A stretch of 40,573 bases of DNA from an uncultured Acidobacteriota bacterium (GTDB lineage: Bacteria; Acidobacteriota; Thermoanaerobaculia; Gp7-AA8), in contig CALMZP010000167.1 in NCBI GenBank assembly GCA_937870635.1, forward strand, positions 104,917-145,489, in the 5' to 3' direction. The position numbers were made by a program, and so were the translations under genes. Positions 9,737-40,573 of this stretch are shown piece by piece; position 1 is the stretch's first letter; each line of letters starts with the position of its first letter. Under the pieces are notes generated by a model that made no database searches, had not been told where the DNA came from, and worked only from the letters and a program-made list of their open reading frames with translations.

Positions 9737-9803
9737 TGGATTTTAGATTTTGGATTTTGGATTTTGGATTTTTGGCCCAATCCAAAATCCAAAATCCAAA
9801 ATG
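9737..9803. repeat. heptamer palindrome (ATTTTGG/AATCCAA units) between atpZ and the atpI-like gene
   Basis: Four ATTTTGG-type units on the left (one variant, ATTTTAG) are followed by a short TTGGCC-like centre and three AATCCAA units on the right (about 9776-9803). The two sides are reverse complements and would fold into a stem of about 27 bp. It lies within the atp gene cluster. The same unit builds the palindrome at 27721-27800. Confidence 0.9.
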
Positions 9804-14081: not shown

Positions 14082-14112
14082 ACATCGCCGCCCTTTTCAA
14101 GGGACATTTTTT

Positions 14113-14192
14113 GGACCTTAGACCCTGGACCCTGGACCTGGGGATGACCGGGTCGGGCACTCCCAGGGTCCAAGGTCCAGGGTCCAGGGTCC
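14113..14192. repeat. heptamer palindrome (GGACCCT/AGGGTCC units)
   Basis: Four units of type GGACCCT (14113-14140) and four of type AGGGTCC (about 14165-14192) in inverted orientation around a 22-bp GC-rich centre. T-tracts flank both sides (ATTTTTT before, TTTTTT after), so a plus-strand transcript would look like a terminator. The same AGGGTCC unit appears in the array at 39202-39237. It ends 4 bp before the TTG proposed as the permease start. Confidence 0.88.
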
Positions 14193-27695: not shown

Positions 27696-27720
27696 GGGGC
27701 CGGAGTGCTTGCAGACGGTC

Positions 27721-27800
27721 TGGATTTTCGATTTTGGATTTTGGATTTTGGATTTGGCCGGAGTCCAAAATCCAAAATCCAAAATCGAAAATCCAAAATC
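27721..27800. repeat. heptamer palindrome (ATTTTGG/TCCAAAA units)
   Basis: About five units of ATTTTGG type (27721-27755, one variant ATTTTCG), an 8-bp centre, then about five units of the complementary type (27763-27800, with the matching variant CGAAAAT). The variant units pair with each other, so the stem is nearly perfect over about 34 bp. Same unit as at 9737-9803. Confidence 0.92.
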
Positions 27801-27847
27801 TCCCGGGCGGGCTGGTTCGCCTCCTGCATGACGCACTCAGCAGTCTC

Positions 27848-28264
27848 ATGACGGAAACCGATCCCCGCAAGGACGACCGCACCAAACGGATCGCCGACGT
27901 CGACCGGAAGCGCGTCCTGGTCATCGACGACGACCTCCCTCTGCGGGGCATGCTGGCCGCCGCGCTGAGGCAGCATGGCTTCCAGGTCCTTCTGGCCGGC
28001 GACGGGGGTGAAGGACAGCGCGCCCTCACCATCCATCACCCTGATGTCATCCTGCTCGACCTCGCCATGCCCCACGTCAACGGATGGGACTTCCTTCAGC
28101 GCCTCAAGGAGACCGGCCACATCGGAAAGATTCCGATCATCGTGCTCTCCGCACACCTTCGCGTCGAGCCGCAGGCGGTCCTCCAGATGGGGGTCTCGGC
28201 GATTCTGCCCAAGCCATTCAACTTGACCGATCTCATCGATCTGATCGACCATCTCTGCCCGTGA
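27848..28264 (+). CDS. single-domain response regulator (CheY-like receiver)
   Basis: 138 residues from ATG 27848; the frame is open upstream only through the heptamer repeat. Receiver motifs are complete: acidic cluster Asp27-Asp28 (VLVIDDD), phospho-acceptor Asp71 (VILLDLAMP), switch Ser101 (IVLSAH) and Lys122 (LPKPF). A 20-residue polar N-terminal extension precedes the domain. There is no output domain, and no histidine kinase is nearby, so the partner is unknown. Its stop overlaps the GTG of the methyltransferase gene (GTGA). Confidence 0.92.
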   Translation: MTETDPRKDDRTKRIADVDRKRVLVIDDDLPLRGMLAAALRQHGFQVLLAGDGGEGQRALTIHHPDVILLDLAMPHVNGWDFLQRLKETGHIGKIPIIVLSAHLRVEPQAVLQMGVSAILPKPFNLTDLIDLIDHLCP

Positions 28265-37050: not shown

Positions 37051-38550
37051 GTGAAAGTGCTGATCGCGAATCGCGGTGAGATCGCGGTGCGAATCACTCG
37101 AGCGTGCCGCGAGCTCGGTTATCCCACGGTGGCCGTGTATTCGGAGGCCGATCGAGCCGCGCTCCACGTCCTTTACGCCGATGAAGCGATGCCGATCGGG
37201 CCTGCGCCGTCGCGCGAGAGCTATCTGCGTGTCGACAACATTCTCGACGCTGCGAAGAAGACGGGGGCCGAAGCCATTCATCCCGGGTATGGGTTTCTGG
37301 CGGAGAACGCTGATTTCGCCAGGGCCTGCCGCGATGCCGGGCTGATCTTCATCGGGCCTTCACCTGAATCGATCGAAGCGATGGGATCGAAGACGGAGAG
37401 CCGCCGTCGCATGCAGGCCGCGGGCGTCCCAGTCGTCCCCGGCCTCACCGAAGCCGTGAAGTCGTTCGAGGAGATCTCCGCCTTCGCCAGGTCGGCGGGT
37501 TTCCCGATCATGATCAAGGCCAGCGCGGGCGGCGGCGGGAAGGGCATGCGCTTCGTGGAACGCGATGCGGATCTGCGCGCCGCGTTCGAGCGAGTGAGCA
37601 GCGAAGCGGAATCGTTTTTCGGCGATGGATCCGTTTACGCCGAGAAATTCGTTCCTTCTCCGCGCCACATCGAAGTCCAGGTCCTCGGCGACCAGCACGG
37701 CAACCTGGTTCATTTCGGCGAACGCGAGTGCACGTTGCAGCGCCGGCATCAGAAGGTCGTCGAAGAATGTCCTTCGCCGGTCGTCGATGCCGAGCTTCGG
37801 GAACGGCTCGGCGCGATGGCCGTGAAGGCAGCTGCGGCTGTCAATTACTACTCGGCGGGGACGATCGAATGTCTCATGTCACCGGGCCGCGACTTCTATT
37901 TTCTGGAGATGAATACGCGTCTTCAGGTCGAACATCCTGTGACCGAGATGGTGTGGGGCGTCGATCTCGTGAAGGAACAGCTGCGCGTCGCTCGCGGTGA
38001 AAGGCTGGAAATCCGCCAGAGTGACCTCGCGCCGAAGGGCCATGCCATCGAGTGCCGCATCTACGCCGAGGATCCGTCTCGGAACTTCGCGCCGTCGCCG
38101 GGCCTCATCCGCTACATCAATCTTCCGCAGGGACCGGGCGTGCGGAACGAGAACGGTGTGTATGCCGGCTACACGGTCCCGGTCCACTACGATCCGATGC
38201 TCTCCAAGCTCGTCTGCCACGCGGCGGATCGCGGCGAGGCGATCGGGCGGATGCGCAGGGCGTTGACCGAATATCGCGTCGAAGGCATCGACACGACGAT
38301 TCCGTTCTTCACGTTCATCATGAACCACCCGGATTTCGTCGCCGCGCGGTTCGATACCGGTTTCATCGACAGCCTTCTGGGTCATGCCGATTTCGCGCGC
38401 GGCCCGGCGGATGAAGCGACCGTCGATGCCGCGATCACGGCGGCCGCGATCATGGCTTTCGAAGACTCGCAGCGGGTGCAGATCCCGACCGATCGCGATT
38501 CGCCCTGGAAACGCGCGGGACGCGCGGAAGGGGTGCGAGGCCGCGAATGA
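37051..38550 (+). CDS. acyl-CoA carboxylase biotin carboxylase subunit (AccC/PccA type)
   Basis: ATP- and bicarbonate-dependent carboxylation of the biotin carrier, for acetyl-CoA or propionyl-CoA carboxylase. About 499 residues from GTG 37051, giving the family-typical MKVLIANRGEIAVRI; ATG 37042 would add three residues but overlaps the likely -10 box. Motifs: HPGYGFLAEN, the ATP-grasp glycine loop IKASAGGGGKGM, EKFVPSPRHIEVQVLGD, GERECTLQRRHQK, and EMNTRLQVEHPVTE with the catalytic residues. It is longer than typical AccC (about 450), like alpha subunits of acyl-CoA carboxylases but without the fused carrier; the carrier is the next gene, overlapping as ATGA. Confidence 0.95.
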   Translation: MKVLIANRGEIAVRITRACRELGYPTVAVYSEADRAALHVLYADEAMPIGPAPSRESYLRVDNILDAAKKTGAEAIHPGYGFLAENADFARACRDAGLIFIGPSPESIEAMGSKTESRRRMQAAGVPVVPGLTEAVKSFEEISAFARSAGFPIMIKASAGGGGKGMRFVERDADLRAAFERVSSEAESFFGDGSVYAEKFVPSPRHIEVQVLGDQHGNLVHFGERECTLQRRHQKVVEECPSPVVDAELRERLGAMAVKAAAAVNYYSAGTIECLMSPGRDFYFLEMNTRLQVEHPVTEMVWGVDLVKEQLRVARGERLEIRQSDLAPKGHAIECRIYAEDPSRNFAPSPGLIRYINLPQGPGVRNENGVYAGYTVPVHYDPMLSKLVCHAADRGEAIGRMRRALTEYRVEGIDTTIPFFTFIMNHPDFVAARFDTGFIDSLLGHADFARGPADEATVDAAITAAAIMAFEDSQRVQIPTDRDSPWKRAGRAEGVRGRE

Positions 38551-39041
38551 AATTTGTCGCCCAGCACGAGGAGCGCACGTTCGAAGTGGAAGTGGAACGT
38601 TCCGGCAGCGGCTACCGGGTCCGCCTCGACGATCGCTGGATCCATGCCGATCTGGTCGACGCCGGAGGTTACGTCCGGTCGCTGCGCCTCGAAGACGGCA
38701 AGCAGTTCTCGCTGATCCATCATCGCAACGGAACGATGCACGAGATCACGCTCGGCGGTTCGAATGTGACGGTAGAGATCATCGATCCGCTCGCCCTGCG
38801 CCGCCGTCGTGAGGACGACGCCGGAAGTGGCGGAACGATCAAGGCGCTCATGCCCGGCCGGGTCACCCGCATCCTCGTTGCCGAAGGCGATACGGTGCGC
38901 AAGGGCACGGGACTGTTGATCCTCGAAGCGATGAAAATGGAGAACGAGATCCAGGCGCCCGCCGACGGCATCGTGGACCGCATTTTCGTCACCGCCGGCC
39001 AGACAGTCGAGGGCGGCGCCGAACTGTTGCACTTGGGATAG
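38547..39041 (+). CDS. biotin carboxyl carrier (biotinyl-domain) protein
   Basis: 164 residues. The C-terminal 75 residues form a biotinyl/lipoyl domain: IKALMPGRVTRILVAEGDTV, and the biotinylation motif EAMKMENEI with the target lysine codon at 38934-38936, then IFVTAGQTVEGGAELLHL. The N-terminal 90 residues (FEVEVERSGSGYRVRLDDRW) resemble the BT-like linker domain of propionyl-CoA carboxylase alpha chains. The pair of genes is therefore a split version of a biotin carboxylase-carrier polypeptide. No carboxyltransferase subunit is in the window. Confidence 0.95.
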   Translation: MKFVAQHEERTFEVEVERSGSGYRVRLDDRWIHADLVDAGGYVRSLRLEDGKQFSLIHHRNGTMHEITLGGSNVTVEIIDPLALRRRREDDAGSGGTIKALMPGRVTRILVAEGDTVRKGTGLLILEAMKMENEIQAPADGIVDRIFVTAGQTVEGGAELLHLG

Positions 39042-39104
39042 CCACCGCCCGTCCGCCGTGACGCCACCCGCCCGTCCCGCCGTCACTATTCATTGCTCAG
39101 CGTC

Positions 39105-39237
39105 TATCCTCATCCTTCATCCTTCATCCTTCATCCTTCATCCTTCGTTCATCTTTCATCGTTCATCGTTCATCGTTCGTCCAAGGTCCAAGGTCCAAGG
39201 TCCAGGATCCAGGGTCCAGGGTCCAGGGTCCAGGGTC
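39105..39237. repeat. composite heptamer array, one-sided, four unit types in one phase
   Basis: From 39111 to 39236 eighteen consecutive 7-bp units stay in register: CATCCTT x5 (39111-39145), then CGTTCAT-type x5 (39146-39180), CCAAGGT x3 (39181-39201), CCAGGAT (39202-39208) and CCAGGGT x4 (39209-39236). Unlike the other four arrays it has no inverted partner. The CCAGGGT part matches the right arm at 14165-14192. It lies between the biotin carrier gene and the kinase-like gene, and the TATAAT of the latter starts 5 bp after the last unit. Bases 39042-39104 before it are GC-rich and resemble 11365-11409. Confidence 0.93.
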
Positions 39238-39241
39238 CCTC

Positions 39242-39247
39242 TATAAT
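39242..39247 (+). promoter_or_regulatory. -10 box TATAAT for the kinase-like gene (leaderless)
   Basis: Perfect TATAAT, then six C residues, then ATG 39254, so the message would begin at or next to the A of the start codon. No ribosome site is possible in this spacing. Upstream lies the heptamer array, which would have to supply any -35 element. Confidence 0.6.
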
Positions 39248-39253
39248 CCCCCC

Positions 39254-40573
39254 ATGTCGTCCGTTCCCACGGTAGGTCCTTACCGCCTCGGCGAACGTCT
39301 GGGCACTTCTGTCTGGAAAGCGGTCGACTCGCGTAACGACAAGCCCGTCGCGCTCAAGATCCTCACCAAGCAGCTGCCGAAGGAACCCGCGAAGCGCGAT
39401 GCGTTCCTGCGCGAAGTCCGCGTCGCGGCGGCCCTTTATCAGACGTTTCTCGTCCCCATCCAGGAGGTCGTGCCGATCGGCGACAACCTCGTCCTCGTGA
39501 TGGATTTCATCGAGGCTCAGGCTTTCGCGAAGCGCCTCGGTGGCAAGCCGGCTGACCGTCCCGAGTTCTTCCGTCTCGCAGCGCAGCTGACCGACGCGGT
39601 CCGGTTCCTTCAATCGAAGGGACTGGTTCACGGCAACATCAACGCCGACTCGGTGATGGTCAACGCGGCGGGGCAGGTGAAGCTCGGCGGCCTCAATCTG
39701 TTCAATCTCCTCCCGAGGCCCGACGGCGTGTCGCCGCAGTTTCAGCAGAAGAGCTCTGATCCGCGCAGCGTGGCGTACATGGCGCCCGAGCAGATCACCG
39801 GTCAGAAGGCCGATCCGCGTACCGACGTTTATTCGCTCGGGGTGGTCATGTACGAGATGGCCACCGGCCGTCTGCCATTTCCGGCGACGAGCGCCGGCGA
39901 TCTGGCGCGCGCGATCGTGGAAGGGAATCCGGTCTCGCCGAAGACTGTCCATCCGACGATCGATCCTGCCATCGTCAACATCCTCGGCCGCTGCCTTTTC
40001 AAGAATCAGTTCAGCCGTCCGAAGGATGCGAAAGCCGTCCTCGAGGATCTGACGAAGTCCGACCCGAGCGCGGCCAAAGCCGTCGCGGAGACCTCTACAC
40101 GAACTCCCGCCGCGACCCCGGCGGTCGCGGACGATCCCGCCTCGAGGGAGAGCATTCTGCTCGTCGCCGACGTTGCCGATCTTGCGGCGCTGGCAGCGAA
40201 AGATCCGCAAGCGAGCGCGAAAGCCATCGCGCGGATGCAGCTGCTTCTCGGAGAGTCGGTCTACCTGTTCGATGGAAAAGTCATCGATCCGTTTTCGAAA
40301 CGGCTCATCGCCGAGCTTCCGAATGTCGAGAACGCGCTCGAGGCGGCGCGCAAGGGAGAGTTCGACTTCTCACCTGAACAGCAGGAGCCGCCCGTCGTGC
40401 CTGTGCGACTCCTCCTTCACGCCGGGAACGTCGTCACGCGCGACGGCGTGGTCGAGGGAGATGCAGTGACGAAAGCGTTCGCTGCTCTCGAGCAGCTTCC
40501 GCCGATGCAGCTTCACCTCACCGAAGAGTTTGTCCGCCGGGCCAGGGGGAGCGTGCGTGTGCGCGATGCGGGC
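39254..40573 (+). CDS. serine/threonine kinase-like protein, predicted pseudokinase (3' partial)
   Basis: At least 440 residues, running off the window. The fold of a bacterial PknB-type kinase is clear: glycine-loop region GERLGTSVWKAVD, beta-3 Lys35 (VALKIL), alpha-C Glu54 (FLREVRVA), YMAPEQ, and DVYSLGVVMYEMATGRLPF. But the catalytic loop reads HGNINADS at 126-133 instead of HRDLKPxN (Asp128 is Asn, Lys130 is Asn), and the DFG aspartate is Gly146 (VKLGGLNLF). Both catalytic aspartates are therefore missing, so it is probably a pseudokinase acting as a scaffold or sensor. Residues about 290-440 form a second domain I do not recognise (SILLVADVADLAALAAKDPQ). Confidence 0.87.
   Translation, partial: MSSVPTVGPYRLGERLGTSVWKAVDSRNDKPVALKILTKQLPKEPAKRDAFLREVRVAAALYQTFLVPIQEVVPIGDNLVLVMDFIEAQAFAKRLGGKPADRPEFFRLAAQLTDAVRFLQSKGLVHGNINADSVMVNAAGQVKLGGLNLFNLLPRPDGVSPQFQQKSSDPRSVAYMAPEQITGQKADPRTDVYSLGVVMYEMATGRLPFPATSAGDLARAIVEGNPVSPKTVHPTIDPAIVNILGRCLFKNQFSRPKDAKAVLEDLTKSDPSAAKAVAETSTRTPAATPAVADDPASRESILLVADVADLAALAAKDPQASAKAIARMQLLLGESVYLFDGKVIDPFSKRLIAELPNVENALEAARKGEFDFSPEQQEPPVVPVRLLLHAGNVVTRDGVVEGDAVTKAFAALEQLPPMQLHLTEEFVRRARGSVRVRDAG

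Follow-up and report, generated by a model that had tools for sequence, protein, structure and literature searches.

The closest precedent for the repeats described here is found in Geobacter metallireducens, where heptamer and octamer sites are paired across opposite strands (PMC2700814). These 'global regulator' sites of classes 1–3 include four octamers GTTGCTYN and five heptamers MTYCTGA, and binding of an IHF/HU-type protein to the paired sites has only been proposed (PMC2700814). The same genome contains GGGACCG elements, each consisting of four tandem heptamers, in 49 places (PMC2700814). The GGGNATC heptamers of Xanthomonas and Nostoc are dispersed, intergenic and quadruplex-forming, and the study describing them cites an excess of heptamers in bacteria and a possible link with the polymerase footprint (PMC4692102). 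A role in translation was proposed for direct TAACTGA repeats in Beggiatoaceae and cyanobacteria (PMC4679880). We found no literature on heptamers in Acidobacteria.

The array investigated here is located at 39111–39236 of the window (the whole stretch of 40,573 nucleotides that was analysed) and consists of eighteen 7-base words, a 127-bp block within 39105–39237. It lies inside its contig, and gene order is conserved on both flanks. The array starts 64 bp past the stop codon of a plus-strand gene (38547..39041) for a 164-amino acid biotin carboxyl carrier protein (Pfam Biotin_lipoyl, 6.1e-19), which is itself downstream of the gene for biotin carboxylase. The best named match to the carrier protein, from an Acidobacteriota MAG, is only 40% identical. 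The array ends 2 bp ahead of a TATAAT sequence (39242..39247, plus strand), the −10 box of an apparently leaderless gene for a serine/threonine protein kinase (39254..40573, plus strand; Pfam Pkinase, 5.3e-28) that continues past the window end. The box starts 12 bp ahead of the ATG, leaving 6 bp in between. A −10 box at this position recurs across the family and was found in relatives both with and without an array; where an array is present, the −35 region consists of repeat units. Terminator and sigma-70 scans at the array locus returned no site, and an Rfam search of the window returned only a tRNA.

Read from 39111, the words are CATCCTT (five times), CGTTCAT, CTTTCAT, CGTTCAT, CGTTCAT and CGTTCGT, followed by a second block of CCAAGGT (three times), CCAGGAT and CCAGGGT (four times), with CCCTC-TATAAT directly after. 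The initial annotation had written these eighteen words correctly and had sorted them into four unit types. The words are real, but only two cores are left once TTCATC and GGTCCA are placed, and the units were then no longer taken at face value. CATCCTT and CGTTCAT are the same core in different rotations, being 6/7 identical when written as TTCATCC and TTCATCG compared to 4/7 in the earlier frame. CCAAGGT and CCAGGGT likewise reduce to a single core, GGTCCAN, whose A/G variant is freely mixed in arrays genome-wide. By homology the array is therefore two cores, TTCATCN and GGTCCAN, that belong to two common repeat families and are joined end to end. The TTCATCN arm (39109..39179, plus strand, right-arm orientation; N = C, T or G) reads CTCATCC, four TTCATCC, a remnant TTCG, TTCATCT, three TTCATCG and another remnant TTCG. 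The GGTCCAN arm (39180..39239), also on the plus strand in right-arm orientation, comprises the CCAAGGT, CCAGGAT and CCAGGGT words. Units CCAGGGT and CCAAGGT compose the palindrome at 14112–14192 as well, so the last unit type is common to both, as had been stated before.

The initial annotation also held that 7-bp phase is never lost along the array, from which there would follow a 7-bp rule so strong that joins of unrelated units stay in phase. All 18 words do fit a 7-bp grid, and the change from CCAAGGT to CCAGGGT is in phase. Any abutting 7-bp arrays fit one grid, however, because the start of the second unit is a free choice of rotation, and the fit seen here is mostly an artefact of that choice. 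A true phase test needs a core common to both arrays, and the TTCATC join is the one homologous join between distinct blocks at this locus. TTCATC occurs at 39116, 39123, 39130 and 39137 in phase 0 and at 39148, 39155, 39162 and 39169 in phase 4; the middle step is 11 bp, with the 4-bp remnant TTCG shifting the register by 4 bp. Because this remnant closes both TTCATCN blocks, they form a plus-strand super-repeat of two 32-bp copies (39116–39147 and 39148–39179; 4 × 7 + 4 bp; TRF period 32, 87%), and TRF needs 9% indels on 39106–39182. The GGTCCA core is at phase 6, and phase is undefined at the TTCATCN-to-GGTCCAN join, which was found only here in the genome. Randomly phased joins elsewhere had been named beforehand as the result that would refute the claim. 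In a genome-wide pattern search with offsets counted from matched letters, the only two other TTCATCC-to-TTCATCG joins of two units were offset by 6 bp (C147:81337–81384) and 4 bp (C157:45528–45559). A phase rule at joins is absent, and the reading that invoked one is extremely improbable.

A tandem-repeat scan had been suggested with the initial annotation, and we ran TRF on a genome sample of 1,005,092 bp in stretches. Period 7 dominated: 271 arrays had this period, compared to 8 with period 6, 8 with period 8 and none with period 5. The 7-bp rule for unit length is thus real, supported genome-wide by the 271 arrays of many families in 1.0 Mb, but the argument for it from in-phase joins fails, given that homologous joins are out of phase. 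A Markov-1 copy of the 1.0 Mb contained no array of any period below 11, and with zero period-7 arrays in this copy the window array is far from chance. In a 305-kb subset with crude gene calls, 61 of 65 period-7 arrays were outside genes. The genome thus contains about 270 period-7 arrays per Mb; they fall into about ten families and are nearly always intergenic, and the window array is ordinary for its genome, one among many hundreds of 7-bp intergenic arrays. With 7-bp units repeated in tandem at numerous intergenic sites, these arrays belong to the dispersed intergenic heptamer repeats (SSR type). Pattern searches of the genome gave 309 matches to three TTCATCC units (at most one mismatch, both strands, overlaps counted), 55 to three TTCATCG units (at most two mismatches) and 178 overlapping matches to three CCAGGGT units (at most two mismatches). 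AACCGTT and TTCATCC also form long homogeneous arrays. Contigs C41, C46, C83, C130, C133 and C159 end in heptamer arrays; the assembly therefore breaks at long arrays, which are probably under-counted.

Neighbouring arrays are mostly inverted relative to each other. Among 114 cases less than 400 bp apart in the 1.0 Mb, 94 had the same unit in inverted orientation, 3 were direct and 17 other, whereas shuffled units gave expected values of 8.8 inverted and 9.6 direct. Arms were 3–5 whole units long in 150 of 188 cases. The gap between paired arms was mostly 3–30 bp, or 80–230 bp with another palindrome of the CACGTCATCCTGAG...CTCAGGATGACGTG type inside; this second dispersed palindrome was seen within the long-loop heptamer pairs of L075, L077 and L079 and in many AACCGTT pairs. 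An inverted partner of at least 11 nt within 300 bp was detected for 43 of the remaining 81 arms (control rate 1.2%). Both window arms are among the 38 true orphans, out of 269 arms, that have no partner, and no missing left arm was found in 38300–40100. Complete two-armed elements are present elsewhere in the window at 27721–27800, 9737–9802, 1114–1188 and 14112–14192, with GATTTTN (twice), AATGTTN and GGTCCAN as cores; the GGTCCAN element (14112..14192) has the standard layout, TGGACCC... / ...CCAGGGT.

The families of this genome resemble Geobacter classes 1–3 in their short tandem arrays, opposite-strand pairs, variable distance, intergenic location and degenerate positions (PMC2700814). 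Geobacter has about 8–24 pairs per class, compared to about 94 pairs in 1.0 Mb and about ten families here; in addition, the pairs here are often placed around another palindrome, the cores differ and the window array is unpaired (PMC2700814). The Geobacter-type paired layout is hence a property of the genome-wide families, with their 94 inverted pairs, and not of the window array. The GGGACCG elements are similar in having four tandem GC-rich heptamers, but they also occur inside genes and were not described as paired (PMC2700814). The TAACTGA repeats are also intergenic heptamers, and many of them are located just upstream of start codons, as is the window array, but TAACTGA is one fixed unit in direct orientation that lacks inverted pairing (PMC4679880). 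The GGGNATC repeats are likewise dispersed intergenic heptamers, often of about four units and with varying unit number; they differ in using a single G-rich unit, whereas this genome uses many units, nearly all of which lack G-tracts and most of which form inverted pairs (PMC4692102).

Changes within units were not evenly distributed in some families. A single column held 30 of the 38 arm-level changes in GATTTTN arms, with all three other bases seen, and the corresponding values were 34 of 55 for GGTCCAN arms and 22 of 36 for AATGTTN arms. One of seven positions is thus nearly free in the three commonest short-arm families. No significant column bias was observed for the long AACCGTT and TTCATCC families, and therefore a 6+1 rule is not valid for all arms. 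Of all the observations, this column constraint hints most strongly at selection; the bias could come in part from a few old unit variants that spread with the elements. A mirror test for hairpin-templated correction found no excess of variants common to both arms of a pair (p = 0.73 for outer and 0.23 for inner). The other six columns are therefore not maintained by pairing of one arm with the other.

The nearest genomes compared were other genera of the same family. At the carrier–kinase junction, a short gap that lacks an array was found in G001, G002, G005, G006, G007 and G009, inverted GTCGGGN arrays in G004 and G017, an inverted GGCAGAT/GCCATCC pair in G008, and other palindromes in G010, G013 and G014. 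Palindromes related to the CACGTCATCCTGAG.../...CTCAGGATGACGTG type fill this junction in G010 and G013. At a second junction (window 27696–27850), the counterpart of the GATTTTN pair of this genome is GTCGGGN in G004, another palindrome in G008 and a short gap in G001, G002, G006, G007, G009, G010 and G011. At these two junctions, the site in related genera is thus empty, occupied by a heptamer pair built on a different core, or filled by an unrelated palindrome. A mobile element (MITE) would be expected to have a target-site duplication and a linked transposase; no duplication was evident by eye at the two presence/absence loci, and the genome has three Y1-type transposase genes. Among 61 genomes, (GGATTTT)3 and (GGTCCAR)3 occurred only in this one (G000), and (TTCATCS)4 occurred in 10, all of the same family. 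Given the other cores at the same junctions and this restricted distribution of units, pitch and layout are shared and cores are local. Arrays of 8 bp were also found in G008, G009 and G013, and 7 bp is therefore not absolute in the family. One G008 locus (L163 18586–18657) is an inverted pair of 8-bp arrays, GCCTCCNN, with six fixed and two free positions, similar to Geobacter GTTGCTYN. No period-7 array was detected in class-level relatives, for each of which 20 kb was sampled. In other phyla, 7-bp arrays that form short inverted pairs and have degenerate columns were recognized by eye in an NC10 MAG (L121 2889–2958) and a Gemmatimonadetes MAG (L113 2614–2716), which suggests that the paired layout is widespread.

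We considered what else could account for the arrays. Pure replication slippage favouring 7-bp steps, set by the DNA polymerase footprint and involving neither selection nor an element, would explain why period 7 is dominant across many unit families and why long homogeneous AACCGTT and TTCATCC arrays exist, and the footprint idea is cited in the literature (PMC4692102). Slippage alone, however, cannot create an inverted second array (94 inverted compared to 3 direct neighbours) and cannot concentrate changes in one column; the result for class-level relatives also speaks against it. With its standing weakened by the pairing, we regard this explanation as unlikely, and it still appears the most plausible of the alternatives.

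If the inverted arms instead served as RNA hairpins or terminators, the majority of arms being paired, the loops of 3–30 nt and the frequent location of elements near a stop codon would all be expected. The window array, however, has neither a partner arm nor a terminator-like site, and variants are not mirrored between arms. The elements are also distributed over co-directional, convergent and divergent gene pairs (17/11/8, compared to 79/34/38) about as intergenic space allows. These observations render a hairpin function improbable. A G-quadruplex element, as proposed for the GGGAATC heptamers of Xanthomonas and Nostoc, fits one part of the array: at 39212..39235 (plus strand) a canonical motif of exactly four GGG tracts is separated by 4-nt loops. 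Four G-tracts of at least three residues were present in just 6 of the 269 sampled arms, however, and the commonest units, GGATTTT, CCAAGGT and AATGTTC, are unable to form a quadruplex. This explanation is very unlikely.

We favor, with a probability of about 0.6, a joint explanation in which two right arms without partners make up the array; the arms would derive from dispersing paired elements, change by slippage of whole units and contain 6-bp steps recognized by a putative reader. The two dispersed right arms lie between the end of the biotin carboxylase/carrier operon and the kinase −10 box. Each pair would be a dispersing intergenic element, with arms that lengthen and shorten by slippage in whole units. 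Spread of a unit variant by slippage would keep the register, and a small deletion within a unit, such as TTCATCC to TTCG, would break it. The window array most likely arose from two elements side by side, with left arms that were lost or never formed. Less certain is the suggestion that six fixed and one free base pair may be kept since something, probably a DNA-binding protein, reads 6-bp steps.

A broader and quite speculative proposal is that bacteria of several phyla share one class of intergenic element, in which 6-bp cores at a 7- or 8-bp pitch (six fixed and one or two free positions) make up two arrays in inverted orientation. The cores would be lineage-specific and fast-changing, and pitch and paired layout would be kept because a putative repeat-reading DNA-binding protein, or evolving paralogues, recognizes them. 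With about 270 arms per Mb the system is unusually dense and provides many natural replicates of one layout with different units. It could decide whether polymerase slippage or a protein that reads 6-bp steps underlies the recurrence of 7 bp in intergenic repeats of bacteria.
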